Shown piece after piece: positions 3,332 through 24,752 of a stretch of DNA of 31,433 nt. The first letter of the stretch is position 1. Every line of letters begins with the position of its first letter. The stretch covers positions 1 through 31,433 of IMG/VR virus record IMGVR_UViG_3300025168_016087, one strand, 5' to 3'. The translations under genes and the position numbers were made by a program. This stretch comes from a virus. The notes under the pieces are model-generated. The model saw nothing but the letters and a program-made list of their open reading frames with translations. It was not told where the DNA came from and ran no database searches.

Positions 3332-3892
3332 ATGAAATATTGGACTATTGCTTTTATAGTGTGTGTGGTAATGAGTTTAACTGGTTGTGGTAGTATTAGC
3401 AAAGTTAATCCTTTTGATAATGGTATGACAAAGATTGATAAGAGTAAAGGTGATAAAATACCTGAGTGGTTCTTAGAACCTGAAAATAGTGATCAAAAGT
3501 TTATTACTGCAGTTGCTACCGAGACTTCAAAAGATATGCAGTTTGCTATCGATAAGGCAATGATGGTAGCAAAGGTACAGTTAGCTTCTAAACTAAAGAC
3601 TGAAGTTGAAGCCTTAACAAGATCTTCTTCTGTTGAATCTGGGTTTGGTATTAAGGACGTACAAGAAGAGACTGATAGAGTACAGCAGACTCGTGTAAGG
3701 CAAGCTATAGGGTTTTACAAAAGAGAAAGATTGAACGTCTTCAAGGAAAAAGGTGGATACAGAGCTTATGTAATGTTGAAGATTAAGGTTGACGAAGCAC
3801 GTAGATTGACGGAAGATAAGAAGGATAACAGATCTCGTGAAGAGAAGTTTGATAATCTTAATCAACCTACAGTGGAAGTACAACCTATATGA
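3332..3892 (+). CDS. LPP20-like outer-membrane lipoprotein
   Basis: The ATG at 3332 follows GGAG and opens a type II signal peptide ([19 protein letters not shown]) with lipobox LTGC; Cys19 would be lipidated. The mature part has the LPP20 pattern: [10 protein letters not shown], then an alternating helix with conserved alanines ([18 protein letters not shown]), and a C-terminal strand ([15 protein letters not shown]). LPP20 proteins are surface lipoproteins of unknown mechanism. Length is 186 residues. Its TGA overlaps the start of gmd by four bases (ATGA), so it is probably co-transcribed with the sugar genes. Possible role in changing the infected cell surface; inference only. Confidence 0.75.
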
Positions 3893-4899
3893 AAACAGCT
3901 CTTATAACAGGAATAACCGGTCAAGACGGATCGTACTTGGCCGAACTCCTTTTGTCAAAAGGATATATGGTGCATGGCATCATAAGACGAAGTTCATCAA
4001 TCAATACAAGAAGAATAGATCACATATATGATAATAAGAATCTCAAATTACATTATGGTGACATAACAGATTCATTATCATTAACTGATATAATTAAAAG
4101 AACAGAACCAGATGAAATATATAACTTAGCTGCACAGAGCCATGTTAAGGTTTCATTTGAGACACCAGAGTACACAGCAATGACTGATGCTCTTGGAACA
4201 TTGAAAGTCTTAGAAGCTGTAAGGTTATTAGATATGGTTGATAAGGTAAGAGTATATCAAGCATCAACATCTGAACTTTATGGACTTGTACAGGAAGTAC
4301 CACAAAAAGAAACTACTCCATTCTATCCAAGAAGTCCTTATGGTGTTGCAAAATTATATGGTTATTGGATAATTAAAAATTATAGAGAATCATATAACAT
4401 GTATGCATGTAGTGGTATATTGTTTAATCATGAATCTCCAAGAAGAGGTCATAACTTTGTAACTAAAAAGATTGTAAATGGTTTATATGAAATAAAGACT
4501 GGTATTCAAGATTGTTTATATCTTGGTAATATGAATGCAAAGAGAGACTGGGGTCATGCAAAGGATTATGTTGAAGCTATGTGGTTAATGCTACAACAAG
4601 ACAATCCAAAAGATTATGTAATAGCTACAGGTGAGCAATATTCAGTAAGAGAGTTTGTGGAACGTAGTGCACCTAAGTTTGGTTTTGATATAGAATGGGA
4701 AGGTGAAGGATTAAATGAAGTTGGTAGAGATAAAATTAGTAATAAAATAATTATTAAAATTGATCCTAAATACTTTAGACCTGCAGAAGTTGAATCGTTA
4801 TTAGGTGATTCAACACTTGCTCGTAATGAACTTAATTGGAAACCAAAGTATAGTTTCCAACAATTGGTAGATGAAATGTGTAGGATAAATTATATATGA
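3889..4899 (+). CDS. gmd: GDP-mannose 4,6-dehydratase
   Basis: Converts GDP-D-mannose to GDP-4-keto-6-deoxy-D-mannose, the common precursor of GDP-L-fucose, GDP-colitose and others. The NAD(P)-binding glycine motif [11 protein letters not shown] is at residues 7-17. The arginine pair [10 protein letters not shown] that contacts NADP is at 33-42, as in bacterial Gmd. Catalytic residues are Thr127 and Glu129 (in STSELYG) and Tyr151 and Lys155 (in SPYGVAK). At 336 residues it is slightly shorter than bacterial enzymes (about 370) but appears complete. It overlaps both neighbours by four bases. It supplies substrate to the next two enzymes. Confidence 0.95.
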
Positions 4900-5825
4900 A
4901 TACAGATGATAAGATTTACATTGCAGGACATAGAGGTTTAGTTGGTTCATCAATTATAAGAAACCTCGAATCAAAAGGTTTTAATAATATTATTGGCAGG
5001 ACTAAAAGTGAACTCGATCTAAGAGAACAAAATCCAGTTAGAGATTTCTTTGAAGAAGAAAAACCAGATTGTGTTTTTCTTGCAGCTGCCAAAGTTGGTG
5101 GTATCAATTGGAATAAAACTAATCCAGCAGAATTTATTTACGATAACTTATCTATACAGAATCATGTAATAGATGCTGCTTATAAGTCTGGTGTTAAGAA
5201 GTTTATGTTCCTTGGTTCAGCTTGTATCTATCCAAAGGTAGCTGAAGTTCCAATTAAAGAAAAAAGCCTTATGACAGGTCCTCTAGAGCCTTCAAACGAA
5301 GGATATGCCTTGTCTAAGATAGCTGGAATGAGAATGTGTGCATTCTATAGAAGGCAGTATAACTTTGATGCTATAAGTGTTATGCCTGCTAATTTATATG
5401 GACCAAAAGATAACTTTATTCCGGAACATGGCCATGTTATTCCTGGATTAATTAGAAAGATGTTTGATGCTAAGATAAACAAAGATCCAAATGTTGTATG
5501 TTGGGGTGATGGTTCTCCTACAAGAGAATTTTTATATGTAGATGACTTAGCTGATGCATGTGTGTTCTTAATGAACACTTATAGTGAAGAAGAATTTGTT
5601 AATGTTGGTAGTGATGTAGAAATTAAGATTAAAGATCTTGCTGAAATGATTAAAGATTATGTTGGTTATGAAGGAGAGTTAATCTGGGATACAACAAGAC
5701 CAAATGGTACACCAAAACGTGTTATGGATAATTCAAAATTATTTAATATGGGTTGGTCACCAAAAGTAGAATTCGAGCAAGGACTAAAACAAACAATTGA
5801 ATGGTACATGGATAATAAATTATGA
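4896..5825 (+). CDS. fcl: GDP-L-fucose synthase (GDP-4-keto-6-deoxymannose epimerase/reductase)
   Basis: An extended SDR of 309 residues with glycine motif AGHRGLVGS at 10-18. The Fcl block LGSACIYPK supplies Ser108 and Cys110, and EGYALSK supplies Tyr137 and Lys141; [11 protein letters not shown] carries the conserved histidine of the epimerase acid/base pair. The family performs 3,5-epimerisation and 4-reduction to yield GDP-L-fucose using NADPH. Because a ColD-like dehydratase follows, a ColC-like role (making GDP-colitose) is an alternative, but the motifs are those of fucose synthase. ATGA overlaps at both ends indicate coupled translation. Confidence 0.93.
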
Positions 5826-7063
5826 GTTGGCCTCTAATGGGTGAGACTATCACAATAAGTGATAGATTGAAAATGGCATATTTTACTTTGACTGCAAAGA
5901 AGTTTACTAACGGTGAAAAAGTAAAACAGTTTGAAGAAGAATGGAATAAATGGTTAGGTTCAAGACATTCGTTATATGTGTCAAGTGGAAGTACAGCTAA
6001 CTTTTTATTAGTAGCTTCTGTTAAAGAACTGTTTGGTTTGAAAGCTGGAGATAAAGTTTTACTTCCAGCTTGTACTTGGGTAACCAATGTTGCACCAATA
6101 ATTCAATTAGGTTTAGAACCTGTCTTTGTAGATATTAATTTAGATAACTTCAGTTTTAATATCGAACAACTTAAAAAAATAAAATACAAAGAAGACATAA
6201 AGATGATATTTGTTACACATCTTTTAGGTTTTGCAGGTGATCATAATGAATTACAAGATATGTTTCCAAACGCTTTAATTATAGATGATGTTTGTGAATC
6301 CCATGGGTGCGAATATGAAGGTCATAAAGTTGGTAAGAAAAGTTTAGGTGCTACATATAGTTTTTACTTTGGTCATCATATGTCAACAATTGAAGGTGGA
6401 ATGGTATCTACTAACAGTGGTGACCTTTACGATATAATGAGAATGAAAAGAGGACATGGAATGGCCAGGGAGTCAAGAAACTTTCAATCTCATGCTCGTT
6501 CATATCCGGATATAGATAAACAGTTTTTGTTTATGACTGATGGATACAACTTCAGAAATCATGAAATACCAGCTGTACTTGGTTTGAATCAATTAAAAAG
6601 ACTTGATAGTATGATCGCAAGAAGGAGACAAAATTACAAATCGTTTGTTAATATTATAAATCAGTTCCCGAAAATATTTTATCCTTTACAAGACAATCCG
6701 GGTAATAGTAGTTTTTGTTTACCTTTTGTTTGTAGAAAAACAACAACAATGACCCGACTTAAAAAATTATTTACAAAGTGGGGTATTGAATATAGGCCTA
6801 TTGTTAGTGGTAATTTATTGAGACAACCTTTCTTAAAAGATTATACACTTAAAGATTCTACTAACGTTGATCTATTACACGACAATGGTGTATACATAGG
6901 CAATAGTCATTTTGTTGGCAGTAATCAACTTGAAACTTTGAATCGTATATTAAAGGAATACTATGGTAGCAGAAAAATTAGAAGAAATAATCAAACACAG
7001 AGTAGATCAAGCATTAACAGAATCAGATCAGAACCCAACGGAAAAATTAGTACGTCTACCTGA
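5822..7063 (+). CDS. PLP-dependent sugar 3-dehydratase, ColD-like (DegT family with His for Lys)
   Basis: DegT/DnrJ/EryC1 fold with SSGSTANFLL near residue 54 and IIDDVCESHG near 160. The usual PLP lysine motif is replaced by SFYFGHHMSTIEGG; His185 stands where the Schiff-base lysine would be. This is the mark of ColD (GDP-4-keto-6-deoxymannose 3-dehydratase, His188), and the C-terminal block GIEYRPIVSGNLL also matches ColD. It lacks the extra iron-sulfur cysteines of RfbH. Directly after gmd and fcl, its likely substrate is the Gmd product, giving a 3,6-dideoxy-4-keto sugar. The family-like part ends near residue 380 (LKEYYG); 34 low-complexity run-on residues overlap the next gene by 101 bases, probably after a one-base deletion. 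Confidence 0.85.
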   Translation: MSWPLMGETITISDRLKMAYFTLTAKKFTNGEKVKQFEEEWNKWLGSRHSLYVSSGSTANFLLVASVKELFGLKAGDKVLLPACTWVTNVAPIIQLGLEPVFVDINLDNFSFNIEQLKKIKYKEDIKMIFVTHLLGFAGDHNELQDMFPNALIIDDVCESHGCEYEGHKVGKKSLGATYSFYFGHHMSTIEGGMVSTNSGDLYDIMRMKRGHGMARESRNFQSHARSYPDIDKQFLFMTDGYNFRNHEIPAVLGLNQLKRLDSMIARRRQNYKSFVNIINQFPKIFYPLQDNPGNSSFCLPFVCRKTTTMTRLKKLFTKWGIEYRPIVSGNLLRQPFLKDYTLKDSTNVDLLHDNGVYIGNSHFVGSNQLETLNRILKEYYGSRKIRRNNQTQSRSSINRIRSEPNGKISTST

Positions 7064-7328: not shown

Positions 7329-8247
7329 GATAGTTTTTTTCAATCACTATCATAGAGGTGATTTACATACAAGCAAAGAGTTTGTTAGACAAGTAATAGA
7401 CAACGTTGATGCTGAATTTGAATATTGGTCTAATAATCCAAATGTTTTAGTATCAGATTTAAATTTGGAAATAACAGATTCACCAGATAATTTAGATAAA
7501 AGTAAAGCTCTACTTAAACAAGGTGACACACTTTTTGTTAACACATGGGTAGGATGCCAATGGGATATATTTTGTAAGCATGGTGGAATAAACATGAATA
7601 CATTTTATGAACAATGGGAACTTTTATTTAAAGGTATCAATAAGTTTTTTGGTTCGAATTTAGAATTGAGAGATGATAAAGAATCTTACTTACCAAGAAT
7701 GGATTGGGATAAAATAGATAAAAAAATAAAGAAAAAAATTGATGTATACATGGATATGATTAATAGAAAAAAAGTACTTGTGTGTAATAATCAACCTGCT
7801 TCTAATCAATCATTTCTTTATGATATTGATAGTATGTTAATTAAGTTAGCAAAAGAAAATAGCCATGTTAGATTTTTCACTACTGATCCTATTCCAGACA
7901 GGGAAGACAATCCAGCTAACATAACTTCATTAGAAGTAGTATATGATCGTTTACAAGATTGTGATTTAAGAGAGATATCTTATTTTAGTACTTTGTGTGA
8001 TGTTATTATAGGAAAGAATTCTGGTCCATATGTCTTTGCAGAAACACATGAAAACTATATGGACTCTTCTAAATCGTTTCTTTCTTTCAATACTAAGAAT
8101 CCAGAGTTTGAGGATATAAAAGAAACTATGTCAAACGGTTTAGACTTAAAATGTAAATACAAAACAGTACCTATATATTCTATAGATAAGCCTGAAGAGA
8201 AAGATGTGAAAGCTATTATGGGAGCTATAGAGGATGTTATAAAATGA
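7321..8247 (+). CDS. Putative GT-B-type glycosyltransferase
   Basis: The 308-residue protein has MNKIVFFNHYHRGDLHTSKE at the N terminus. This resembles sugar-handling proteins in which HYHRGD begins a GT-B N-terminal Rossmann domain. Its C-terminal part contains YFSTLCDVIIGKNSGP and YVFAETHENY, similar to the nucleotide-sugar site of heptosyltransferase-like (GT9-related) proteins, where the acceptor-side loop is followed by G-x-x-S/T-G. The order of genes (between a ColD-like enzyme and a fucosyltransferase) supports a transferase. No DxD motif is needed in GT-B. The assignment is by pattern and context, not a firm family match. Confidence 0.55.
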   Translation: MNKIVFFNHYHRGDLHTSKEFVRQVIDNVDAEFEYWSNNPNVLVSDLNLEITDSPDNLDKSKALLKQGDTLFVNTWVGCQWDIFCKHGGINMNTFYEQWELLFKGINKFFGSNLELRDDKESYLPRMDWDKIDKKIKKKIDVYMDMINRKKVLVCNNQPASNQSFLYDIDSMLIKLAKENSHVRFFTTDPIPDREDNPANITSLEVVYDRLQDCDLREISYFSTLCDVIIGKNSGPYVFAETHENYMDSSKSFLSFNTKNPEFEDIKETMSNGLDLKCKYKTVPIYSIDKPEEKDVKAIMGAIEDVIK

Positions 8248-9116
8248 AAAAAATAAAAGTTGCTTTTACAGATACACACGACCACTTAGCTGCTTTCTTT
8301 AATCATCTATTGAGTATGAGATACAATGTAGAAATAGTTAAAGATGAAAACCCTGACTTTTTAATATTTGGTGATAAGAACTTTGGTGTAGATAATTTAA
8401 ATTTTGATAAAGATAAAGTTACAAAAATATTCTATACTGGAGAGAACCAAAGACCAGAAGATTATGAATGTCATTATGCGATAACATTTGACCATAATTA
8501 TTATGGTTGGCATTATAGATTACCTTTGTTTGTTATATACTTGTGGGCATTAAAGAATGTTCATAAAACTAAGTATGATAAAAATTATATTCTTAACCCA
8601 ACTATAGAAAAGAAGTATGACTTTTGTTCCTTTGTAGTTAAGAATGGTGTACCTCCGGAAAGAAATGAATTCTATGATCAACTATCACAATATAAGAAAA
8701 TAGATAGTGGAGGTCCTCATAAGAAAAATATTGTTGGTGATTTAAAAACAGAAGAAGATAAAATTAAGTTCCTATCATCAAGAAAGTTTAATCTTTGCTT
8801 TGAGAGTATGAGCTATCCAGGTTATGCAACTGAAAAAATACTTCATGCTTTCTTAGCTGGTACTGTTCCAATATACTGGGGTAGTGAGACTATTGAATCT
8901 GATTTTAATCCAAGAGCCATGATTAATGTTCATAACTTTGCAGAATATTCTGATGTTATTGAATATATTAAAAAGATAGATAAAAGTGACCCACATTATG
9001 AATGGACAGTAAATCAACCTAAGTTTACTAATAATATATTACCTTCATATATGTTTTATAATAATTTCTTGAATTGGTTTGACTCAATTGTATATCAGAA
9101 ACAATTATCGAGATGA
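8244..9116 (+). CDS. GT10 family fucosyltransferase
   Basis: The 290-residue product has the two blocks typical of alpha-1,3/1,4-fucosyltransferases (GT10). One is FYTGENQRPE at about residues 63-72, with the catalytic-type Glu67. The other is the C-terminal donor-binding stretch FNLCFESMSYPGYATEKI then AFLAGTVPIYWG at about 182-213. In known members the TEK and GTVPVYWG elements bind GDP-fucose. The donor is exactly what gmd and fcl at 3889-5825 would make, which strengthens the call. The acceptor is unknown. No membrane segment or signal peptide, so it should act in the cytoplasm. ATGA overlaps on both sides. Confidence 0.88.
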   Translation: MKKIKVAFTDTHDHLAAFFNHLLSMRYNVEIVKDENPDFLIFGDKNFGVDNLNFDKDKVTKIFYTGENQRPEDYECHYAITFDHNYYGWHYRLPLFVIYLWALKNVHKTKYDKNYILNPTIEKKYDFCSFVVKNGVPPERNEFYDQLSQYKKIDSGGPHKKNIVGDLKTEEDKIKFLSSRKFNLCFESMSYPGYATEKILHAFLAGTVPIYWGSETIESDFNPRAMINVHNFAEYSDVIEYIKKIDKSDPHYEWTVNQPKFTNNILPSYMFYNNFLNWFDSIVYQKQLSR

Positions 9117-9838
9117 AGATACAGACATTTATATTCAACTGGCCAGGTGTTAAAGAAGGCAAGACACATTATGAAATGGTCACTAAAAAAGAACAACAGT
9201 TTAATTTATTAAAAAAAGATCCTATAATAATTAACAGTGATGAAAAACATAATCAAACTCGCTGGCATAATATTGGTAATGATGGATACTTTACAGCTCA
9301 GTTTATGAAAGCATTAGAATTATTTGATGGTGATATTCTTTTTCATGTTCAAGCAGATTGTTATTACAATGATTGGCAACCAATATATGATTCTGCCATA
9401 AAGTATTATAAGAAATACAAATGGGGCATCTATGCTCCTAACGTAGATTATACTTGGTATACATCTGAAAGAACAGATTTAGATATGTTTAAGATACCTG
9501 ATGAAAACTTAAAGATGGTAGCTAATCCAGATTGTACTTGTTGGATGATTCATAAAGATATATTAAAAGAAGCTGTCAAGAGAAAGATAGACTTTGCACC
9601 ATATAAGATGGGCTGGAGTTTTGATATAGTATATACTGCATTATCATATATGTTAAAGAGACCTGTGTTGAGAGATTACAGATATACAGTTAATCATCCT
9701 CAAGAAACAAATTATAGTAAGCCCACAGCTGAAATAGAGATGCATAATTTTTATAATTCATTACCTGAAGAATTAAAACGTCCTTTTGCTATGATAAAAG
9801 GTGACATAAATCAACTTGCGGAATACTATAAAAAATGA
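9113..9838 (+). CDS. Predicted GT-A-type glycosyltransferase
   Basis: The 241-residue protein lacks close similarity to a named enzyme that I can recall, but it carries a GT-A-like core. IGNDGYFTAQFMKALELF and GDILFHVQADCYYNDW (an acidic QAD in place of DxD) are followed by WGIYAPNVDYTWYTS and DCTCWMIHKDIL. The W/D-rich central strand and the cysteine pair DCTCW are what one sees in compact GT2-like enzymes. It lies directly after the fucosyltransferase with a four-base overlap. Donor and acceptor unknown. Confidence 0.6.
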   Translation: MKIQTFIFNWPGVKEGKTHYEMVTKKEQQFNLLKKDPIIINSDEKHNQTRWHNIGNDGYFTAQFMKALELFDGDILFHVQADCYYNDWQPIYDSAIKYYKKYKWGIYAPNVDYTWYTSERTDLDMFKIPDENLKMVANPDCTCWMIHKDILKEAVKRKIDFAPYKMGWSFDIVYTALSYMLKRPVLRDYRYTVNHPQETNYSKPTAEIEMHNFYNSLPEELKRPFAMIKGDINQLAEYYKK

Positions 9839-10749
9839 TTGAACTTGACTTTTTCCAAACTAATAATGAGATATCAAAAATATTAAGTGATGGTAAACCA
9901 GCAAGTATTATGAGAATAGATAATACAATGGGATATGTCTTTGATAGTTACAACAAAGGTGTTGAACCTGTTGATGGTTTTTTTAATCATAATACTTTTA
10001 TTGAAGGTGGTGTTTATCCCATAGATAAATTATGGTATCAAAAAAATGTAATACCACCTGTCGAAGCATCAATGCAGAATAGTGATATATTAGGCTTTGT
10101 TGATATGTCTGGTGATATAAGAAAAGGAACATATTTAAATAAATTTGATGAAAATAAAAAAGTCTTTGGAGGTGATTCATTTTTAATTATGGATCCTGGA
10201 GCTATACTTGGTCATTCAACACAATACGGTAAGTTAGATAATCCTTGGACAAGTAACCTCAAAGATAAAAAGGTATTAGTTATATCAACTCATGCTGAAT
10301 CTATAAAACACCAATGGAAGAATATAGATAAGATCTGGGGTGATAGTAGAAAAGATATTGCGCCTTTTGAGTTAGTTGATTGTATAAGATCCCCATACCA
10401 TCCAATGATGGATAGCAGACAACCTCCTAACTGCAAAGACTGGTTACAATCAGTTGAATATATTAAAGAACATATTGATAATTATGATTACGACGTTTTA
10501 CTTGCAGGCTGTACAGTCTCATCTCCTCTTTATGCAGAACATGCAAAAAAGAATGGTAAGATAGGAATACAAACTGGAGGAACAATTCAATTATTTTTTG
10601 GTTTATTAGGTTATAGATGGACAAAAGTACCAGGTTATAGTACTTGGCATAACATGTATAATGAACATTGGATTGAACCTTTGAAAGAAGATCATTCACA
10701 AGGCAGAACGAGATTACAACATTTAGAAGCTAACTTTGCATACTGGTAA
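9835..10749 (+). CDS. Predicted GT-D-fold (DUF1792-like) glycosyltransferase
   Basis: The 304-residue protein starts with a motif of the GT-D type (KPASIMRIDNTMGYVF, about residues 22-37). The C-terminal block is DVLLAGCTVSSPLYAEHA, then GKIGIQTGGTIQLFFGLLGY and RW. That block, in which a glycine-rich loop precedes GG-x-x-Q-x-x-FG-x-x-G-x-RW, recurs in GT-D related proteins of glycan clusters and marine phages. The biochemistry of this branch is poorly known. It sits between two predicted transferase or dehydrase genes and overlaps its upstream neighbour by four bases. Assignment from motif and context. Confidence 0.6.
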   Translation: MIELDFFQTNNEISKILSDGKPASIMRIDNTMGYVFDSYNKGVEPVDGFFNHNTFIEGGVYPIDKLWYQKNVIPPVEASMQNSDILGFVDMSGDIRKGTYLNKFDENKKVFGGDSFLIMDPGAILGHSTQYGKLDNPWTSNLKDKKVLVISTHAESIKHQWKNIDKIWGDSRKDIAPFELVDCIRSPYHPMMDSRQPPNCKDWLQSVEYIKEHIDNYDYDVLLAGCTVSSPLYAEHAKKNGKIGIQTGGTIQLFFGLLGYRWTKVPGYSTWHNMYNEHWIEPLKEDHSQGRTRLQHLEANFAYW

Positions 10750-10751
10750 AC

Positions 10752-12068
10752 ATGAAAGAACAAATACTTGAATCGGTAAAAAAATTATTAGATAGTAAAG
10801 AAAAGAAATGGGAAGCAGGTAAGGACATGGTTAACTATGCTGGTCCTTATTTTGATTCCAGTGAAATAACTTCTGCTATAGAATCATTACTTGATGGTTG
10901 GTTAGTGATGGGCAAGAAGTGTATGAAGTTTGAGAAGTTATTTCCAAAACAGTTTGATAAGAGATATGGTGTGTTAACTAACTCTGGATCAAGCTCTAAC
11001 CTTCTTATGATGGCTGCATTAAAGTCTAAAAGAACATATAACTTTCCAGATGGTACTAAAGTACTAACTCCCATAGCTGGCTTTCCAACTACACTCAATC
11101 CTATACTTCAACATAGAATGGAACCCATCTTTGTTGATATAGAACAAGAATCTTTGAATCTTAACTTGGAACATGTTGAACAACAATTAAATAATCATCC
11201 TGATTGTAGGGTTATTACATTTGCCCATGTATTAGGTAATCCACCTAATATGGATCGCTTAATGGATATTATAGACAAGTACAATCTTATCTTATTAGAA
11301 GATTGTTGTGATGCTTTAGGTTCAACATATGATGGTAGACCTCTTGGTTCATATGGTGATATGGCTTCATGCTCGTTCTATCCAGCACATCATATGACAA
11401 TGGGTGAAGGTGGATTTGTAGCTTGTAAAGATGAACACTTAGAAACAGTTGTAAGATCTTTTAGAGAATGGGGTCGTGGTTGTTATTGTGTTGGTCCAAA
11501 AGCTAATGCATTAAAATGTGGAACCTGTAATAAAAGATTCTCTGAATGGATACCTGCTTTGCCTGGTGAAATATTTGATCACAAATATGTGTATGAGGAG
11601 ATTGGATATAACTTAAAGCCAATTGAGTTACAAGGTGCAATGGGTCTTGAGCAGTTAAAGAAGTTAGATAAGATACACGAACTAAGAAGAAAAAACTTTA
11701 CATTACTTTATAACATATATGAAAAGTATGAGGAATTCTTCCATCTACCAAAAGCTACAGAAAAGTCTAATCCAAGTTGGTTTGCCTTTCCATTAACAAT
11801 AAAGAAAGGTGCTCCATTCAAGAGAGATGATATAGTTGATTACTTAGAAGAATCTAAGATACAAACAAGAACTTACTTTGGTGGCAATATTATGCTGCAG
11901 CCTGGTTATGATCATATAATGCCACCGGATATGGCTAAGAATGAATATCCAGTTGCAACTCATGTTATGTTGAATACTTACTTTCACGGAACAAGTCCAG
12001 TTATAACAGAAGAACAAATGAAGTATATTGGTAATCAAGTTGATGGCTTTATGAGTTTATTTGTATGA
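10752..12068 (+). CDS. RfbH/DdhC-type NDP-4-keto-6-deoxyhexose 3-dehydrase (E1), [2Fe-2S] and PMP dependent
   Basis: DegT-fold enzyme of 438 residues, matching RfbH/E1 in length. The motif CSFYPAHHMTMGEGG places His213 where aminotransferases have the PLP lysine, as in E1 (His220 in the Yersinia enzyme). E1 also carries a [2Fe-2S] cluster on C-x57-C-x-C-x7-C. Here Cys186 (EDCCDALG), Cys244 and Cys246 (RGCYC) keep the first spacing exactly. The fourth ligand would be Cys256 or Cys259 (KCGTC), after a small insertion. The following KRF, DHKY and IGYNLK elements agree with RfbH. E1 removes the 3-hydroxyl of CDP-4-keto-6-deoxyglucose together with a reductase (E3). No E3 gene is seen here, and the nucleotide may differ. 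Confidence 0.88.
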   Translation: MKEQILESVKKLLDSKEKKWEAGKDMVNYAGPYFDSSEITSAIESLLDGWLVMGKKCMKFEKLFPKQFDKRYGVLTNSGSSSNLLMMAALKSKRTYNFPDGTKVLTPIAGFPTTLNPILQHRMEPIFVDIEQESLNLNLEHVEQQLNNHPDCRVITFAHVLGNPPNMDRLMDIIDKYNLILLEDCCDALGSTYDGRPLGSYGDMASCSFYPAHHMTMGEGGFVACKDEHLETVVRSFREWGRGCYCVGPKANALKCGTCNKRFSEWIPALPGEIFDHKYVYEEIGYNLKPIELQGAMGLEQLKKLDKIHELRRKNFTLLYNIYEKYEEFFHLPKATEKSNPSWFAFPLTIKKGAPFKRDDIVDYLEESKIQTRTYFGGNIMLQPGYDHIMPPDMAKNEYPVATHVMLNTYFHGTSPVITEEQMKYIGNQVDGFMSLFV

Positions 12069-13234
12069 AGAGTATATCTAATGCTGCTTGGAATATAGAC
12101 GGTCAACCTATGTTTAAGTACCTCGACTATGCTAAGATGTTAGAGAGTCAAGGTAAAGACATGATTCATTTAGAAATAGGTGATCCAGATTTCAATACTC
12201 CTTCTAATGTTACATTAGCAGCTATTAATGCTTTATCTAATGGGGATACACATTATACAAGTAGCTGGGGTGATCCTGAGTTTAGAGAAGTAATAAGAAC
12301 TGCAACATATTGGAGTAGAGGTTTTGTTCCTGATCTTGATCAAGTATTAGTAACACCTAGTGCAAATATTTGTATATTTTATGCTATGTTTGTTTTGTGT
12401 GAAAAAGGTGATGAAGTTATAGTTCCTGATCCAGGATTTGCAACATACTTTAGTAGTGCTAAGATGTTAGGATTGAATGTAAAAAGAGCTCAACTAAAAG
12501 AAGAAAATGGATTTAGATTACAAGCAAAAGATGTTGAAGATCTTATTACAGATAAAACAAAATTAATAATAATTAATAGCCCTAGCAATCCAACAGGTGC
12601 TGTTATGACAAAAGAAGAATTGAAAGATATATATAATGTTTGTGTTAAGCATGATGTCTATTTGTACTCTGATGAAATATACAGTAAACTAATATTTGAT
12701 GGATATGAATTTACAAGTCCTTCCAAGTATGATGAATGTAAAGAATATGTTATTTTAAGTAATGGATTCAGTAAAGGATTTGCAATGACAGGTTGGAGAC
12801 TTGGTACATTGATAGGTCCCCCAACTGTAATAGAACGCATTCAAGCGCTGCTTCAAACAACGAGTAGTTGTGTTAGTCCTTTCATTCAAAAGGCCGGTAT
12901 AGAGTGTATACAAGGTCCTCAAGATGATGTTAAAAGAATGTGTAAAGAATACAAAGAAAGAAGAGATTTACTCATATCAGGTTTGAATATGATAGATAGA
13001 TTTACATGTGATACACCTGGTGGTGCATTCTATGCTTTTCCTAATATATCTGGTACAGGTTTAAGTGACGTTGAAGTATCTAAACAGTTAATGGATAATG
13101 CAGGAGTAGTTACTTTACCAGGAAGTTGTTTTGGTGAATATGGATCAAATAACATTAGACTATGTTATGCTAATAGTAAAAAAAATATTAATAATGCATT
13201 GGTGAGAATAAATGAGTGGACAAAGAGTTTGTGA
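12065..13234 (+). CDS. Class I/II PLP aminotransferase (aspartate aminotransferase-like)
   Basis: Fold-type I aminotransferase of 389 residues, full length for the family. Visible motifs are HLEIGDPDFNTP near residue 35, HYTSSWGDPEFRE near 80, SPSNPTGAV near 174 and SDEIYSKLIF. The PLP lysine is Lys237 in SNGFSKGFAMTGWRLG, and there is a C-terminal NNIRLCYA. Unlike the two DegT enzymes nearby it keeps its lysine, so it should be a real transaminase. This subfamily usually works on amino acids or keto acids, not on sugars, so its place in a sugar cluster is unusual. It might provide an amino or keto acid for a ligation or for the adjacent ThDP enzyme; that is inference. Confidence 0.88.
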   Translation: MKSISNAAWNIDGQPMFKYLDYAKMLESQGKDMIHLEIGDPDFNTPSNVTLAAINALSNGDTHYTSSWGDPEFREVIRTATYWSRGFVPDLDQVLVTPSANICIFYAMFVLCEKGDEVIVPDPGFATYFSSAKMLGLNVKRAQLKEENGFRLQAKDVEDLITDKTKLIIINSPSNPTGAVMTKEELKDIYNVCVKHDVYLYSDEIYSKLIFDGYEFTSPSKYDECKEYVILSNGFSKGFAMTGWRLGTLIGPPTVIERIQALLQTTSSCVSPFIQKAGIECIQGPQDDVKRMCKEYKERRDLLISGLNMIDRFTCDTPGGAFYAFPNISGTGLSDVEVSKQLMDNAGVVTLPGSCFGEYGSNNIRLCYANSKKNINNALVRINEWTKSL

Positions 13235-15035
13235 TTGGATAGCACATCATCTTTATAATATTGGTGTAAAAAATGTACACGGTATTATGGGAGGTGGAGC
13301 AGCAGGTTTAAATGATGGTTTTATTAAACATGGTAAGATTAAATATGTTTGTTATCATCATGAGCAAGGTGCTGGTCATGCTGCTATAGGTGAGTCAAAG
13401 TATACAGGTAAACTTTCTGTTGTTAATCCTACAACCGGTTGTGGTGGCACTAACTGCGCTACAAGTGTATTAGATGCTTGGCAAGATAATGTTCCAGTAC
13501 TTTTTTTAAGTGGTAATGTTAAACTTGCAACATGTTCTGGTCATATCAATAAAGAAAAAAATATCAATATAAGAAAGTATGGTATACAAGAACATCATAT
13601 AGTAGATACTTACAAGTCCATGACAAAGTATACTAAGTTTATAGATGATCCAGCTGACGTATATAACACAATAATTGAAGCAATTGAAATAGCACTCACA
13701 GGAAGAAAAGGACCAGTGTGGATTGATATTCCAGGTGATATTCAGTTATCTCCTATGGTTTTTCCATCATTAGAAAAGTCCTTTAAAATCAAGGAGTTAT
13801 CTAGCTACAGTGTTGATAGTGATACACTAGATATCTTAATGAAAAGGTCAGAGAGACCATTAGTGTTAGCTGGTTATGGAATACGTCAAAGTAATACGGT
13901 TGAAGAGTTTAAACAATTTATTGAACAAAGAAACATACCTTTTGTAAGCACATATGGTGGTAGAGATTATTTTCCAAATGATAGTAAGTATAGTATTGGT
14001 GCAATAGGTCAAAGAGGAAGTAGAGCTGGCAACTTTGCATTACAAAATGCTGATCTGTTAATTATACTTGGCAGTTCTTTAAATGCAAGTGCAATTGGGT
14101 ATGATCCAAAACAGTTTAGTCCTAATAGTATTAAAGTGTATATTGACATAGATCAAAATGAATTAGATAAAGATATAGTAAATGTTGAATATAAATGTGA
14201 TATGGATTTAAAAGATTTCTTTAATGATGTAATTTATACTCACGGTCCAAATATAAAAACTGGCTTTGAAGAATTAAATGTTGAATGGATTGCAAAATGT
14301 AATTACTGGAAAGAAAAATGGCCAGTAATGCAAAAAGAATATGAAGCTGATAATACTGATACACCTTTGAATCTGTATGCTGTGTTAGATGCAGTTAACA
14401 AGCATAGTGGTCGTGATGATATATTGATGGGTGATGCTGGTAGTATAAGTTATGCTGGACCTGTTGCATTGAATCCAAAATATGATCAAAGACTAATTTT
14501 TAGTCCTGCACAAGCTGATATGGGTTGGGCAGTCCCAGCTAGTATTGGTGTGGCTATGGCAAGTAATAAAAATGTTATTGCTATAACAGGTGATGGAAGT
14601 TTTATGAGTAATCTTCAAGAACTATCTGTCATGCGTCACCATTGGTTAAATATTAAAATAATAATATTAAACAATAGAGGATATTTGAGTATCAAGAACA
14701 CTCAACAAAAATATTTTGAAAATAGAGTATATGGTACAAGTGATAAGACGGGTTTGGAGTTTCCAGACTATGCAAAGTTAGCTGATTCATTTGGTATTCA
14801 ATATTACTTAATAAAAAATAAAGGTGATTATAATAATGGTATCTTTTATGGATTAGATAGGTTTGAATCTCTATTAGCTATAAAAGGTCCTGTATTAATT
14901 AACTGTATATGTTTAGATGATCAAGAGATACTTCCTTCACAAGCGTTAAAGAATGGTAAACAAGCAGGTCTACACGATATGACTCCATTCTTGTCTGATA
15001 AAGAACTTAAAAATGAAATGATAGTTGATATATGA
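13212..15035 (+). CDS. ThDP-dependent acetolactate-synthase-like enzyme
   Basis: A 607-residue, three-domain thiamine diphosphate enzyme. The N-terminal PYR domain has the activating glutamate Glu51 in CYHHEQGAGHAA. The middle domain carries a Rossmann-like region (ERPLVLAGYGIRQSN, IIILGSSLNASAIG) of the kind that binds FAD in acetolactate synthases. The C-terminal PP domain has the ThDP motif starting GDGSFMSNLQ at about residue 461 and ending in LNN 26 residues later. In sugar pathways such enzymes (YerE is the known example) add a two-carbon unit from pyruvate to a 4-keto-3,6-dideoxy sugar, making branched-chain sugars. It lies two genes after the E1-like dehydrase. It overlaps the upstream gene by 23 bases. 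The precise substrate is not readable from sequence. Confidence 0.88.
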   Translation: MSGQRVCDWIAHHLYNIGVKNVHGIMGGGAAGLNDGFIKHGKIKYVCYHHEQGAGHAAIGESKYTGKLSVVNPTTGCGGTNCATSVLDAWQDNVPVLFLSGNVKLATCSGHINKEKNINIRKYGIQEHHIVDTYKSMTKYTKFIDDPADVYNTIIEAIEIALTGRKGPVWIDIPGDIQLSPMVFPSLEKSFKIKELSSYSVDSDTLDILMKRSERPLVLAGYGIRQSNTVEEFKQFIEQRNIPFVSTYGGRDYFPNDSKYSIGAIGQRGSRAGNFALQNADLLIILGSSLNASAIGYDPKQFSPNSIKVYIDIDQNELDKDIVNVEYKCDMDLKDFFNDVIYTHGPNIKTGFEELNVEWIAKCNYWKEKWPVMQKEYEADNTDTPLNLYAVLDAVNKHSGRDDILMGDAGSISYAGPVALNPKYDQRLIFSPAQADMGWAVPASIGVAMASNKNVIAITGDGSFMSNLQELSVMRHHWLNIKIIILNNRGYLSIKNTQQKYFENRVYGTSDKTGLEFPDYAKLADSFGIQYYLIKNKGDYNNGIFYGLDRFESLLAIKGPVLINCICLDDQEILPSQALKNGKQAGLHDMTPFLSDKELKNEMIVDI

Positions 15036-15994
15036 AAAATGTATTAATAACTGGAGCAACAGGTTTCATAGGTAGTTACTTAGTTGAAGAGTTTGCTAAA
15101 GATAATTTAGTTATAGGTTTTATAAGACCTGGATCTAAGAGTGTAAAAAGAATGGAATATCAGGCAAGACCTTGGAATAAAACTTACATAGAACACGATA
15201 TAAGAAAGCCATTTAAAAGAAAGCCATTTAATTATAATCATAAAATTGATATAATATTACATGCTGGCGGTAATCCAAGTTCTGAAAGTAGCTTTCATGA
15301 TCCTTATTCAATGGTAATGGATAATATAGTTGGTACAGCTAATGTACTTGAGTTTGCAAGACAGAATGATATTAAGAGAGTAGTTTATTATGGTGCAGCA
15401 GAATCATATGGACCATCTAAAGATATAGAAAGAGGAACTATTGAATCTGATGCATACAATTCATTAACTCCATATGCAGCCTGTAAGTCTGCTGGAAGTG
15501 AATTATGTATGGCTTATTCAAATAGTTATGGAATAAAAGTCAGTGTGTTAAACATAGCTAATACATTTGGTGAAAAGTGTCAAACTAATCGTTTTCCTAT
15601 AATAGTTTTAAAAAAAATATTTGAAAATAAACCAATTACTATCAATAAAGGTAGTGATGGTTCAATAGGTGGTAGAAGATGGTTTCATGCTGAAGATGTT
15701 GCATTACAAACAAGATATATTTTAGACAATCAAGAAAGTTTAAATGATGTTTGGAACCTAGCAGGTAAAGATTTTATCGATAACTTAACTTTTGCTAATA
15801 TGATAGCAGATGCATATGGTGGATCATTAAAAGTAAAATTTGATACAGTTAAAAGATCTGGTCATGAATCATTTATGTCACTATCACCAAAAAAACTTTA
15901 CGACTTTGGTTGGAAAGATCCATATACTATTAATGAAAGAATAATACAAATGGTAGACTGGTATAATAAAAATTCTAGGTGGATATATGACTAA
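15032..15994 (+). CDS. NAD(P)-dependent sugar epimerase/dehydratase/reductase (extended SDR)
   Basis: An extended short-chain dehydrogenase of 320 residues with TGATGFIGSYL at 7-17 and Tyr148/Lys152 in TPYAACKSAG. Where relatives have S-T-x-E-x-YG, this protein has GAAESYG (residues 121-127), so the usual catalytic Ser/Thr appears to be alanine; Glu124 is kept. The C-terminal GGRRWFHAEDVA and LYDFGW elements are typical of sugar-nucleotide SDRs. It may be the 4-keto reductase (YerF-like step) or an epimerase after the ThDP enzyme. A 15-bp tandem duplication inserts five codons near residue 60. Overlaps neighbours by 4 and 8 bases. Confidence 0.85.
   Translation: MKNVLITGATGFIGSYLVEEFAKDNLVIGFIRPGSKSVKRMEYQARPWNKTYIEHDIRKPFKRKPFNYNHKIDIILHAGGNPSSESSFHDPYSMVMDNIVGTANVLEFARQNDIKRVVYYGAAESYGPSKDIERGTIESDAYNSLTPYAACKSAGSELCMAYSNSYGIKVSVLNIANTFGEKCQTNRFPIIVLKKIFENKPITINKGSDGSIGGRRWFHAEDVALQTRYILDNQESLNDVWNLAGKDFIDNLTFANMIADAYGGSLKVKFDTVKRSGHESFMSLSPKKLYDFGWKDPYTINERIIQMVDWYNKNSRWIYD
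15202..15231. repeat. Perfect 15-bp tandem duplication inside an SDR gene
   Basis: The unit AAGAAAGCCATTTAA is present at 15202-15216 and 15217-15231 without mismatch. Because 15 is a multiple of three, it repeats five codons in frame (RKPFK RKPFN in the protein) in a surface-type loop between the nucleotide-binding strands. It looks recent, since no synonymous changes separate the copies. Confidence 0.9.
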
Positions 15995-16925
15995 AGCTGT
16001 TTATGTAACTGGTTGTTTAGGTTTTATTGGATATCATTTAACCAAACAATGTTTAGAAAATAATTGGCATGTATATGGTATTGATAAACAAACATATGCT
16101 TCTAATACACAGTTTTTAAATAAACTTAAATCTTATCCTAAGTTTAAATATTCGTGTGAAGATATCAATGATTTACAACGTATACATGATTGTGATTACT
16201 TTATAAACACTGCAGCAGAAACACATGTTGATAATAGTATCAAATGTAGTAATGCATTTTTAGAAAGTAATATTAATGGTGTACATAACATATTAAAACT
16301 TATACAAGTTAAAAAACAAAGACCAATACTTTTACATTTCAGTACTGATGAAGTATATGGTGATATAGATGTTGGTTCATTTAAAGAATCCAATCTTCTA
16401 AAACCAAGTAATCCATATTCAGCTACAAAGGCAGCTGCTGATATGTTGATACTAGCTTGGGCAAGAACATTTGATATAAATTATGTAATTGTAAGACCAA
16501 CAAATAATTATGGTACTGGTCAATATGTTGAGAAGTTTATTCCTAAAGCAATAAAATATTTAACATTAGGTAGAAGGATAATATTACACGATAAAGGTTT
16601 ACCAAGAAGAACATGGTTACACGTGAATGATACAGTGTCTGCAGTAATGAAAATAATTGAGTCTAAACAACAAAATGAGATATATAATATAAACGGCAAT
16701 TATGAAGAACAAAACATTGTCGTAGCAAAGAAAATATTGTATAGTTATGGAATACTAAACGACGAAGATGATTACATTGATGATACAGAAAAGAGACTTG
16801 GTCAAGATGTGAGATATTCAGTAAACGACAACAAACTTAAAGAAATTGGTTGGCATCCTAAAGCTAATTTTGATAAGGAGTTAAAAATAATAGTAGATTA
16901 TTATAAGAAGAATTTTATATGGTAA
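15987..16925 (+). CDS. RmlB-like NDP-glucose 4,6-dehydratase
   Basis: Extended SDR of 312 residues. TGCLGFIGYHL at 8-18 binds NAD. NTAAETHVDNSI at 74-85, FSTDEVYGD at 118-126 and NPYSATKAAADM at 142-153 are the RmlB signatures, with catalytic Thr120, Asp121, Glu122, Tyr144 and Lys148. RPTNNYGTGQY and KFIPKAI follow as in dTDP-glucose 4,6-dehydratases. Such enzymes give the 4-keto-6-deoxyglucose nucleotide that the RfbH-like enzyme could use. Classical RfbG acts on CDP-glucose, whereas RmlB acts on dTDP-glucose; the nucleotide preference here is unresolved. It is a little shorter than bacterial RmlB (about 350 residues). Confidence 0.88.
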   Translation: MTKAVYVTGCLGFIGYHLTKQCLENNWHVYGIDKQTYASNTQFLNKLKSYPKFKYSCEDINDLQRIHDCDYFINTAAETHVDNSIKCSNAFLESNINGVHNILKLIQVKKQRPILLHFSTDEVYGDIDVGSFKESNLLKPSNPYSATKAAADMLILAWARTFDINYVIVRPTNNYGTGQYVEKFIPKAIKYLTLGRRIILHDKGLPRRTWLHVNDTVSAVMKIIESKQQNEIYNINGNYEEQNIVVAKKILYSYGILNDEDDYIDDTEKRLGQDVRYSVNDNKLKEIGWHPKANFDKELKIIVDYYKKNFIW

Positions 16926-17653
16926 AGTTATTAACAATGAGTGTGTGGGGAGATGATCCAAGATATATCATTGGTGCAAGACAACAAACAAGATTAGCAA
17001 GTCAATTTTATCCAGATTTCACTGTAAGAATTTATACAGATGATGCTGAAAAGTTTAAAGTATTACTTCCTTGGTATGATGTAGAGATACATGAAAGACA
17101 AGATAGTAATGGTGTCTTTTGGAGATTTGAACCTATGTTTGAATCAGAAGATAATATTGTTTTGGTGAGAGATTCAGATGGTCGTATAACTAAAAGAGAA
17201 GCTAGAGCAGTTAATGAATGGTTAGACTCTGATAAGACTTTTCACACTTTTAGAGATCATGAGTCCCATTTAGAATATCCAATTATAGCATGTGCATTTG
17301 GTTATAAAGGTAAACTACCTAAACAACAACTTGATGAAATGCTAGCTATTAAAAATCAACCTTTCTATTATACAAATGACCAAGTGTACTTACGGGATTC
17401 TGTTTGGCCGATAGTTAAAGATAATAGTATGATACATCAATATGATCAACCTGGATGGTTTAATGAGTCAAGAGAAAAGTTAAGAAATAGATTTTCTTTT
17501 TGTGGAAATGGTTATGACCAACATGATATGCCATTATATCCTCCAACATTGAAAGAATGTACTGGTTTCGATCCATCTAATGTAAATGTGAAGTACAAAT
17601 TTGATAAAGGAATACTTATAGATGAGAACATTCATAATAGTACCTACGCATAA
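16919..17653 (+). CDS. Predicted GT-A glycosyltransferase with DSD motif
   Basis: A 244-residue protein with the sequence VRDSDGRITKREARAVNEWL near residues 82-101. RDSDxR followed by a helix with E-x-x-A-V-x-E-W is a recurring signature of small GT-A-like proteins encoded in bacterial glycan loci and marine phages; the DSD would bind the metal and nucleotide sugar. The N-terminal part (YIIGARQQTRLASQFYPDF, then RIYTDD) and the later YYTNDQVYLRDSVWP fit a compact transferase. Donor and acceptor unknown. It overlaps the next gene by 32 bases, unusually long for this operon. Confidence 0.65.
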   Translation: MVKLLTMSVWGDDPRYIIGARQQTRLASQFYPDFTVRIYTDDAEKFKVLLPWYDVEIHERQDSNGVFWRFEPMFESEDNIVLVRDSDGRITKREARAVNEWLDSDKTFHTFRDHESHLEYPIIACAFGYKGKLPKQQLDEMLAIKNQPFYYTNDQVYLRDSVWPIVKDNSMIHQYDQPGWFNESREKLRNRFSFCGNGYDQHDMPLYPPTLKECTGFDPSNVNVKYKFDKGILIDENIHNSTYA

Positions 17654-18437
17654 CAAAGAACATCTTATTGAACAAGTTTATGATGGTATAGCTTCAAATA
17701 TTAGTAAACAATTAGATTATAAAATTATCTTTATAGCAGATGGTTGTACTGATCATACTATTAGTATAATAAACGATTATACTGAAAAACATAATCTACA
17801 AGATAACACAGTCTTGTTAACTGCTCCTGATGTTCATGAAATAAAATCTTTGAACATTGGACTCAGTTTTATAGAAGACAAATTTAAACCAGATGATGAT
17901 GATTTAATATTCACTGTTCAAGATGATGTTGTAATACAAGAGCCTAATTTTGATCTATATTTTAAAAAGTTAAATGAAAAACATAATAATACTGGTTATA
18001 TAACTTGGAGACTTGGTTGTACTTTGTCTACAGATGGTGTAACATTGAATGAGTCAAACTTTGTTGAGTCTGAATTTGGTCATTGGTCTGTACACAAGAT
18101 TGGTCCTCCTTTTCAACAGATTAAACATAAACAGTTTGCTATAACAGAAGCTGTTATAAGAAGCCCAACTTGTGTACTTTGGAAAAGGTACAAAGAAGTT
18201 GGTTTTTATAATGAAGAACTTGCACCGTGTGGATTTGATTGTCATGATATGAGTATTAGGATGAATAAAGCAGGTTATAAGAACGGCATACTTGCATTAA
18301 AATATCAAAGTGATGTTGACTGGGGTTCTACAAGAGAAAAGCCTCAGACAGAAGTTAATTCAAAAATAGGCGAGATATTTGAACGTAATAAAAAGCATGT
18401 AGTGCAAACATATAAAGATTATTTTAATTATGAGTAA
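17622..18437 (+). CDS. GT2-family glycosyltransferase
   Basis: A 271-residue GT-A enzyme. The N-terminal IIVPTHNKEHLIEQV, the nucleotide strand with ADGCTDHT near residue 40, and the acidic DxD-like QDDVVI near 100 are standard GT2 features. A C-terminal CGFDCHDMSIRMNKAGYK corresponds to the catalytic-base region (usually ED in GT2, here DCHD). No membrane helix is present, so it acts in the cytoplasm. Start at ATG 17622 lies inside the upstream gene; a later start would remove the first beta-strand of the fold, which supports this one. Confidence 0.8.
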   Translation: MRTFIIVPTHNKEHLIEQVYDGIASNISKQLDYKIIFIADGCTDHTISIINDYTEKHNLQDNTVLLTAPDVHEIKSLNIGLSFIEDKFKPDDDDLIFTVQDDVVIQEPNFDLYFKKLNEKHNNTGYITWRLGCTLSTDGVTLNESNFVESEFGHWSVHKIGPPFQQIKHKQFAITEAVIRSPTCVLWKRYKEVGFYNEELAPCGFDCHDMSIRMNKAGYKNGILALKYQSDVDWGSTREKPQTEVNSKIGEIFERNKKHVVQTYKDYFNYE

Positions 18438-19326
18438 AACTATATTATTGGGATCGAGTGGTTTTCTTGGTCCACAAATCTTATCAAAATATCCTTCGAT
18501 ACAATCCGTTGGTAGAACAACACCACCTAAGACAAGTCCACTTGTTCATACTTATTGTCCTTCGTTAGAAGAGTTACCAGAGGTATTAGATGAACAAGAT
18601 TTTGATAAAGTTATTATGATGATTGGTAGTTCTAATCACACAGTTCTAAATGAACAAAGACCTCTTAATGTAGAAGCTATTGAAAAGAATGTGCTTCCAA
18701 TGAAGAGGGTCTTTTCATATCTAAGAACAAGAAAATTAAAAAAAGTAATAACATTTAGTTCTATACTTTTATATGATAAAGAAGTAATGACTAATCCAGT
18801 AAAAGAACATACACCTTTAAAACCATATCAGAATGATTATATCTTTAGTAAGTATCTTGGTGAAGAAGTTGCAAGATTTCATCAAGAAGTACCAAACATA
18901 GTTGTAAGGTTAACAAACATATATGGACCAACAACTGTACTTGGTAGACCTGATTTAGTTAATGAATTGGTTGAAGGTTTATTATTTGAAAAGAAAGCAA
19001 AAGTAAAAACAAATAAACCACAAAGAGACTTTATCTTTACTGAAGATGCATCAGATGCTATAGTTAGTTTATTAGATACTGATTATACAGGTCCAATAAA
19101 TGTTGCTTCAGGTGTGATGCATTCAGTTGAAGATATTGTTAGTACATTAGAAGAACTAACAGGTATAGAGATAGAAAGAGGTAATGGTAAGCATACAGGT
19201 CATTTACAATTTGTAGCAGACATTACTAAACTAAGAGAATTAACTGGATTTGAACCAAAATATGATTTAAGAGCAGGTCTTGAGAAAACTATTATAAAAA
19301 TGAAAGAAATGTATGCACAATCCTAA
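18430..19326 (+). CDS. NAD-dependent sugar epimerase/reductase (extended SDR)
   Basis: A 298-residue extended SDR. The nucleotide-binding motif is LLGSSGFLGPQI at 6-17 and the active site has FSSILLYD with Tyr and Lys in NDYIFSKYLGEE. RLTNIYGPTTVLGRPD and DFIFTEDASDAI are typical of sugar-nucleotide reductases/epimerases such as RmlD- or GalE-like proteins. The N-terminal Rossmann domain is shortened compared with RmlB. It is the third SDR after the ThDP enzyme and could carry out a final 4-keto reduction. The exact reaction cannot be read from sequence. Overlaps of 8 and 14 bases with neighbours. Confidence 0.8.
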   Translation: MSKTILLGSSGFLGPQILSKYPSIQSVGRTTPPKTSPLVHTYCPSLEELPEVLDEQDFDKVIMMIGSSNHTVLNEQRPLNVEAIEKNVLPMKRVFSYLRTRKLKKVITFSSILLYDKEVMTNPVKEHTPLKPYQNDYIFSKYLGEEVARFHQEVPNIVVRLTNIYGPTTVLGRPDLVNELVEGLLFEKKAKVKTNKPQRDFIFTEDASDAIVSLLDTDYTGPINVASGVMHSVEDIVSTLEELTGIEIERGNGKHTGHLQFVADITKLRELTGFEPKYDLRAGLEKTIIKMKEMYAQS

Positions 19327-20050
19327 AGTAGCTGTTATTACACCAACTATTGGTACTAAACATTTAAAACAAAATTTAGAATCAGTGATGAATCAAACAT
19401 ATAAAAATATGATTCACTTCATAGTTGTAGATGGTCCCCAATACATGGAAAGAGCCCACACTATACTTGAACAAGTTAACAATCAAAGTAGAGAAGTAAT
19501 ATTTCTACCTGAAAATACAGGTCATAGTAATTATAATGGTCATAGAATATATGGAGCAGCTCCTTATTTAATTAATGCTGATTATGTTATGTTTTTAGAT
19601 GAAGATAATTGGATTAATTCTTCTCACGTTGAAGATTTAGTTAAAGTTGCAGATAAGACCGATTGGGCATTCTCGTTTAGAAACATAGTTGATCAAGATG
19701 GTAAATATGTTTGTAATGATGATTGTGAAAGTCTTGGTAAGTGGCCAACATGTTTGAGTGATAAAGAATTCTTTTTAGATGTTGGTGCATATTTTTTACC
19801 AAAAGCATTAGCAGTTCAAATATCACCTGCTTGGCATAGAAGAGCTAGACATCCTGATGAGCAGCCTGAAGTTGATCGTTTGATAATGCAAATACTTTTA
19901 CATAATCAATATACATATGATTCAACTTATAATTACACATTAAATTACAGAGTTGGTAATAGAGATGATTCAGTTAAAGCTGATTTCTTTCTCCAAGGCA
20001 ATGAACACTTTATGCAAAAATACAATGGGAAGTTACCTTGGAAAAAATAA
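19313..20050 (+). CDS. GT2-family glycosyltransferase
   Basis: The 245-residue enzyme begins KVAVITPTIGTKHLKQNLESV and has VDGPQYMERAH, then MFLDEDNWINSSHVEDLV near residues 97-114, a DxD-type metal site (DED) typical of GT2. FFLDVGAYFLPKAL and HPDEQPEVDRLIM follow in the acceptor half. It is the last gene of the sugar run; no terminator is visible after it. The promoter for gp45 starts inside its last codons. Donor and acceptor unknown. Confidence 0.8.
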   Translation: MHNPKVAVITPTIGTKHLKQNLESVMNQTYKNMIHFIVVDGPQYMERAHTILEQVNNQSREVIFLPENTGHSNYNGHRIYGAAPYLINADYVMFLDEDNWINSSHVEDLVKVADKTDWAFSFRNIVDQDGKYVCNDDCESLGKWPTCLSDKEFFLDVGAYFLPKALAVQISPAWHRRARHPDEQPEVDRLIMQILLHNQYTYDSTYNYTLNYRVGNRDDSVKADFFLQGNEHFMQKYNGKLPWKK

Positions 20051-22489: not shown

Positions 22490-22493
22490 ACCC

Positions 22494-22519: not shown

Positions 22520-22543
22520 AACTTGCTTATTAAGGAGAAACTA

Positions 22544-24750: not shown

Positions 24751-24752
24751 TA

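Follow-up and report, generated by a model that had tools for sequence, protein, structure and literature searches.

A probable phage pathway to a nucleotide-activated C-branched 3,6-dideoxy sugar

What might a phage make with a 3-dehydrase of deoxysugar biosynthesis encoded close to an enzyme resembling acetolactate synthase? The question is raised by a 31,433-nucleotide stretch of viral DNA (IMG/VR record IMGVR_UViG_3300025168_016087, positions 1 to 31,433), which we refer to in its entirety as the window. A first-pass annotation, prepared from the sequence alone, had proposed that an RfbH-type 3-dehydrase, a ThDP enzyme, an RmlB-like 4,6-dehydratase and two reductase-like SDRs form a chain analogous to that of yersiniose, which is made from CDP-glucose by a 4,6-dehydratase, E1 with E3, the ThDP enzyme YerE and a reductase. 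The computational analysis described here supports the analogy, with the corrections that the dehydratase is of the RmlB type, that no E3-type domain was found in the viral records searched and that the phage chain differs from the yersiniose route in further parts, discussed below. We consider it likely that 10752-16925 encodes a phage route to a C-branched 3,6-dideoxy sugar in nucleotide-activated form, although no biochemistry is available and the product is inferred.

The window covers part of the genome of a T4-like phage, with genes for the clamp, clamp loader, regA, DNA polymerase, uvsX and helicase at 20089-31279, and its DNA polymerase is closest to those of cyanomyoviruses (∼46% identity). 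Upstream, from 3889 to 20050, lies a block of sugar genes, all on one strand, that runs into the replication genes (Table 1); the ORF coordinates given in the first-pass annotation were all confirmed. Relative to related loci the E1, aminotransferase, ThDP and RmlB genes have dN/dS values of 0.06-0.17 and are therefore under purifying selection. Of the related contigs, 30 were tested for the T4-type capsid gene gp23 and 7 have it, among them three with lengths of 183, 316 and 328 kb; its absence says little where contigs are fragments. The 316 and 328 kb contigs (L145 and L158; L numbers are our labels for viral loci) also carry the sugar module.

Table 1. Sugar-gene features of the window, with the evidence on which each assignment rests
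Feature	Position	Strand	Evidence
Companion GDP-sugar block: Gmd, Fcl/ColC-like SDR, ColD-like 3-dehydrase	3889..7063	+	TIGR01472; Fcl; 2gms match
GT10 fucosyltransferase-like enzyme, same sugar block	8244..9116	+	Glyco_transf_10 and FucT_N
RfbH/E1-type PMP- and [2Fe-2S]-dependent NDP-4-keto-6-deoxyglucose 3-dehydrase	10752..12068	+	NF011936; 3bcx match; His and Cys conserved
Class-I aminotransferase, inferred 2-oxo-acid donor supplier	12065..13234	+	Aminotran_1_2 221 bits; motifs; locus distribution
YerE-like ThDP carboligase (likely), PYR, middle and PP domains fused	13212..15035	+	Pfam TPP_enzyme N/M/C; clade; JanthE best PDB match
Approximate split site of relatives' ThDP gene (residues ∼356-360, VEWIAKC)	14277..14289	+	Mapped by homology; ORF maps, junctions
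Extended SDR, inferred branched-keto-sugar reductase	15032..15994	+	Epimerase 133 bits; YAACK; conserved slot
RmlB-like NDP-glucose 4,6-dehydratase (first step)	15987..16925	+	TIGR01181 285 bits; PDB matches
Putative glycosyltransferase (assignment inferred)	16919..17653	+	Conserved neighbour in close relatives; no family match
GT2 glycosyltransferase	17622..18437	+	Pfam Glycos_transf_2 31 bits
Second extended SDR	18430..19326	+	Epimerase 64 bits; YIFSK
GT2 glycosyltransferase	19313..20050	+	Pfam Glycos_transf_2 36 bits

The E1 gene product scores 451 bits against the NCBIfam RfbH equivalog, passing the cut-off of 423, and aligns from end to end with E1, its best solved match (345 bits). A His-His motif at residues 213-214, with His replacing the PLP lysine, and the Fe-S cysteines (EDCC 183-186, CYC 244-246 and Cys259) are present. 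By score and residues the protein is a full RfbH/E1 3-dehydrase; that it catalyzes the reaction is inferred. An E3-type Fe-S partner was sought as well, and a search of 23 viral records, many being only fragments, turned up no Fer2 domain; host proteins could serve in this role.

The RmlB-like dehydratase remains under the TIGR01181 cut-off of 365 bits, yet this is by far its best model, the CDP-glucose 4,6-dehydratase model giving only 77 bits against a cut-off of 278. It contains STDE and YSATK motifs and its top PDB matches are all dTDP-glucose dehydratases. The gene is present at 69 of the 80 viral E1 loci considered below. No match to glucose-1-phosphate cytidylyltransferase was obtained among the window ORFs, and no NTP_transferase in the 23 related viral records, many again fragmentary. 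With neither a nucleotidyltransferase nor a Fer2 domain found, both NDP-glucose and the electrons for E1 must come from the host and, because the dehydratase is RmlB-like, we infer that host dTDP-glucose is the likely starting compound. A pathway of the CDP type in the phage was considered and is unsupported, given the low score of the CDP model, the dTDP-type PDB matches and the lack of a nucleotidyltransferase.

Both SDRs of the run are extended SDRs with a YxxxK motif. The first is inferred to reduce the branched keto sugar, its slot being occupied in most relatives by an SDR of ∼265 residues instead, while the pathway role of the second is unknown. The putative glycosyltransferase next to the dehydratase has no Pfam, NCBIfam or PHROG match and is conserved in L002, L003, L017, L107 and L176. 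Thus the 3-dehydrase (by equivalog score, His-His motif and Fe-S cysteines), the RmlB-like 4,6-dehydratase and the two SDRs of the first-pass annotation have all held, the last as extended SDRs.

The ThDP enzyme has Glu51 within an HHEQ motif, GDG at 460-462 and Asn487-Asn488, so that the Glu51 and full GDG-NN motif ascribed to it earlier also hold. Its best solved relatives by sequence are JanthE (8rph, 256 bits), a YerE-like enzyme (PMC12188165), and 5ahk (209 bits), which we take to be PpYerE and whose PDB title reads acetohydroxy acid synthase from Pseudomonas protegens, followed by AHAS at 184 bits. A structure was also predicted, and JanthE is the best fold match of the AlphaFold2 model (pLDDT 83; TM 0.82-0.86). 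A tree of 50 proteins places the phage ThDP clade within a YerE-like group that includes PpYerE and JanthE (support 100/99), apart from IlvB, IlvI, Gcl and PoxB, and a wider quick tree returns the grouping with YerE/JanthE at a support of 98. Identity to JanthE and PpYerE is only ∼29-31% (29% for JanthE). Phage copies occupy at least five separate places in the YerE-like tree, and the proteins of L132 and L151, which lie beside a phage-type E1, are 70% and 68% identical to characterised JanthE and share its unusual CDG motif. L132 gave no gp23 or terminase match, and its viral status rests on the IMG/VR listing together with an E1 and an RmlB of phage type.

A referee might well argue that the ThDP protein is simply an acetolactate synthase of the usual kind, an auxiliary metabolic gene of amino-acid synthesis whose sugar neighbours are unrelated to it. 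Acetolactate synthases are indeed its best NCBIfam matches, and the two have a common superfamily and overall fold. However, the protein scores only 278 and 277 bits against acetolactate synthase equivalogs with cut-offs of 738 and 538, respectively, it belongs to the YerE-like clade, and its gene is tied to E1, RmlB and SDR genes in phages and bacteria alike. The Arg of the FDDR motif of AHAS binds the second keto acid, and the corresponding position is Ser in the phage family; this loss also speaks against an acetolactate synthase but is supportive only, since PpYerE retains Arg at the site. Grouping with true acetolactate synthases would have refuted the original proposal, and the tree shows otherwise. 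On the strength of tree, residues and gene context we reject this explanation, which can be all but excluded. A YerE-like ThDP carboligase, as judged by phylogeny and fold, is the probable identity of the protein, with carboligation and the binding of a sugar nucleotide inferred in the absence of assay data.

The further claim that such a chain is not known from any described phage calls for one correction. RfbH-type E1 also occurs in described cyanophages, S-B43 for example, while none of the matches in 50,697 phage records was recognised as YerE-like. Matches to the ThDP protein in this collection are mostly ordinary acetolactate synthases, apparently on bacterial contigs filed as phage, and a search of plasmids returned matches like acetolactate synthase only. 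Many of the records named Listeria, Staphylococcus, Salmonella or Acinetobacter phage appear to be bacterial contigs with a housekeeping acetolactate synthase.

Members of the phage ThDP clade were found on 23 viral contigs, where RmlB, E1, aminotransferase and SDR genes are repeatedly adjacent, in varied order. A scan with E1 gave 243 viral relatives, the best 80 of which were taken for locus analysis. A YerE-like ThDP enzyme is present at 25 of these 80 loci, a pair resembling alpha-keto-acid dehydrogenase (alphaKADH2-like; E1_dh plus Transket_pyr, the latter weak and below cut-off) at 24, and a split transketolase-like pair (Transketolase_N/DXP_synthase_N plus Transket_pyr) at 19, ThDP motifs being kept in both kinds of pair. 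Exactly one type is found at 68/80 loci and two types at none, where random placement would be expected to give 15.6 overlaps and never gave fewer than 7 in 20,000 draws. As the loci are related and the counts not independent, this figure and the p value quoted below are descriptive only. In the E1 tree the carboligase labels change repeatedly, showing exchange of carboligases at one slot. The three types, which are unrelated to one another, correspond to superfamilies (DC/YerE, alphaKADH2 and transketolases) listed in a 2025 review as branching keto sugars (PMC12247030), the role of the transketolases having been proposed there from gene clusters only. Sister phages provide what we regard as natural cassette swaps. 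The E1 of L098 is 96% identical to that of the window and also lies upstream of gp45, yet it is accompanied by an alphaKADH2 pair, and that of L099, 95-96% identical, has no carboligase within the fetched flank. Compared side by side, L098:1125-2290 and L099:1044-1871 show near-identical E1 genes followed by the alphaKADH2-like pair in one case and directly by an SDR in the other.

These loci bear on a second alternative, that E1 acts with the dehydratase to give a 3,6-dideoxy sugar without a branch, while the ThDP enzyme serves separately, for example in aldehyde supply. In its favor, 12 of the 80 E1 loci, L099 included, have no carboligase inside the fetched flank. Against it, several of these loci are truncated, and the swapping of carboligases from three superfamilies into one slot, together with the co-occurrence of ThDP gene and E1 in bacteria, points to one shared reaction on the E1 product. 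We regard the unbranched sugar as very unlikely and continue with a branched one.

Three further families were noted on the viral contigs: a ∼240-residue family without a Pfam match beside phage E1, present at many E1 loci (L128:1283-2014 and 44 similar ORFs), a conserved 256-residue ORF without family match that adjoins the SDR or ThDP gene at seven loci (L008:3008-3778), and an NAD synthetase gene near the sugar module on several phage contigs (L008:1509-2498).

The first-pass annotation had omitted a class-I aminotransferase, encoded inside the range 10752-15035 that it described, whose ORF overlaps both neighbours and which has a PLP-Lys motif (SKGFAMTGWR) and a carboxylate-Arg motif (RLCYA). 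Gene families that make 2-oxo acids occur at 12 of the 25 YerE-type loci and at none of the 55 others (Fisher p 9e-8, again for related and hence not independent loci). Class-I aminotransferase accounts for five of these loci, HpaI-type aldolase for three and NeuB-type synthase for two, in one case alongside a HAD phosphatase; the other two have acetylating acetaldehyde dehydrogenase together with 4-hydroxy-2-oxovalerate aldolase, with scores well over the cut-offs. PanB is found in L182 and L184. The remaining loci were searched for these seven donor proteins only, so that unrelated donor genes there would escape, and the patterns used to scan viral contigs for the aminotransferase were too specific to reveal a wider spread. 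For ErwE, 4-hydroxy-2-oxo acids are reported as the preferred donors. Because YerE-type loci alone carry genes that make 2-oxo acids, we read the aminotransferase of the window as likely to supply a 2-oxo-acid donor to the ThDP enzyme, an inference for which there are no assay data.

Alternatively, the sugar could be branched and the aminotransferase could act on the branch ketone, giving an aminoalkyl branch. Transaminated branches are known for sugars made by alphaKADH2 enzymes (kibdelomycin; PMC12247030), and the aminotransferase is found with the YerE type only. However, the slot for the SDR reductase is retained beside the aminotransferase, which is itself of the class-I amino-acid type with a carboxylate-binding Arg motif, and the accompanying genes at other YerE-type loci all make 2-oxo acids. 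An aminoalkyl branch thus seems unlikely and donor supply remains our preferred reading. Between the window and L003, dS is 0.07 for the aminotransferase and 0.17 for the ThDP gene, as against 0.95 for RmlB and 0.45 for E1, the lower values suggesting recent recombination of a cassette.

The ThDP gene is divided into two ORFs, of ∼337 and ∼250 residues, in most of the close phage relatives. The ORFs meet at one conserved site, after the middle domain and before the PP domain, in most cases overlapping by ATGA, and dN/dS is ∼0.05-0.12 for both halves. Sequencing error was considered as the source of the split and rejected: the one site and the ATGA overlap recur across contigs from many metagenomes and the halves are under purifying selection. 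The tree requires three split or fusion changes, and the simplest reading that we infer from it is one split followed by two re-fusions, one of them in the lineage of the window.

In the pathway that we propose, the RmlB-like enzyme would convert glucose, probably as dTDP-glucose, to a 4-keto-6-deoxy sugar from which E1, with a reductant that is likewise inferred, would then take off the 3-hydroxyl. A 2-oxo acid, formed from an amino acid by the aminotransferase, would be decarboxylated by the YerE-like enzyme, which would add the resulting acyl carbanion to the ketone at C4, and the new branch ketone would be reduced by the SDR. Both the donor and the position of the branch are inferred. Nearby glycosyltransferases may attach the product to an acceptor of unknown identity, so that the destination of the sugar, too, is a matter of inference. 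A bolder reading, towards which we lean only slightly, is that T4-like phages of aquatic habitats possess a modular route to C-branched sugars. It would have a fixed core of RmlB, E1 and SDR and one of three ThDP carboligases, the YerE type often with a donor gene, different lineages writing different sugars and the split YerE-like enzyme having been re-fused in the lineage of the window.

A second deoxysugar block lies at 3889-9116 (Gmd, an Fcl-like SDR, a ColD-like 3-dehydrase and the GT10 fucosyltransferase). Gmd scores 554 bits against a TIGR01472 cut-off of 415, and the Fcl-like SDR 443 bits against a cut-off of 500. The 3-dehydrase of this block (5822-7063), the second of the window, has an HH motif and ColD/WbdK (2gms) as its best PDB match. 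GDP-L-fucose and/or a GDP-colitose-type sugar is a possible product.

C-branched deoxy sugars are rare sugars of cell surfaces and antibiotics, and we found no report of a phage branched-sugar pathway in the open-licence literature searched. The chemistry is known; the carrier, a phage, is new, as are the modularity and the split architecture. If phages do encode whole, swappable pathways, the sugars probably serve, among aquatic phages and their hosts, to remodel surfaces or to glycosylate virions. The carboligase pairs from phages would, moreover, be candidate biocatalysts for chiral tertiary alcohols, among them split transketolase-type enzymes, for which acceptance of ketones is still unproven in bacteria.

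Genomes were sampled from three phyla, to which a Parcubacteria, a Bacteroidota and a Bacillota genome belong, and ∼3-4% of them encode a close homologue of the ThDP protein. E1 lies nearby at 18 of 27 such loci, and a related SDR at about half. In the single bacterial cluster examined, a glucose-1-phosphate cytidylyltransferase and a CDP-glucose 4,6-dehydratase are present, both above cut-off, which is the known CDP-type layout for branched sugars. With the pathway to yersiniose A the phage block shares, as inferred from sequence and within a single run of genes, 4,6-dehydration, 3-dehydration by E1, carboligation at C4 by a YerE-like enzyme and reduction by an SDR; it differs in having a dehydratase of the RmlB rather than the CDP-glucose type, in that neither a cytidylyltransferase nor an E3-type domain was found in the phage, and in the added aminotransferase. 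JanthE and PpYerE have clade, fold and HHEQ motif in common with the window protein, whereas most of its phage relatives are split into two ORFs and the aminotransferase is extra. The YerE-type enzymes of erwiniose (ErwE) and caryophyllose (MMAR_2332) use hydroxylated 2-oxo-acid donors longer than pyruvate, and aldolases that would yield donors of this kind are encoded at some phage loci; in the window the accompanying gene is instead an aminotransferase and the donor is unknown. The cyanophages S-B43, S-SM2 and P-TIM68 are T4-like and, like the window, have epimerases and glycosyltransferases, S-B43 with E1 and the other two with an alphaKADH2-like gene. In the described cyanophages of the phage collection there was no match to the ThDP protein of the window, and E1 and a carboligase were not seen together. 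The alphaKADH2-like gene of S-SM2 (L185:8983-10191) and P-TIM68 (L186:9049-10194) is annotated 'transketolase central region' and lies within a sugar cluster, adjoining an alcohol dehydrogenase. Branching enzymes of the alphaKADH2 type (KbDH-alpha/beta, aldgamycin) and of the split transketolase type (miharamycin, amipurimycin), the role of the latter in bacterial clusters being itself unproven (PMC12247030), have otherwise been described or proposed from bacterial natural-product clusters alone, and in sister phages of the window the same superfamilies occupy the slot after E1.
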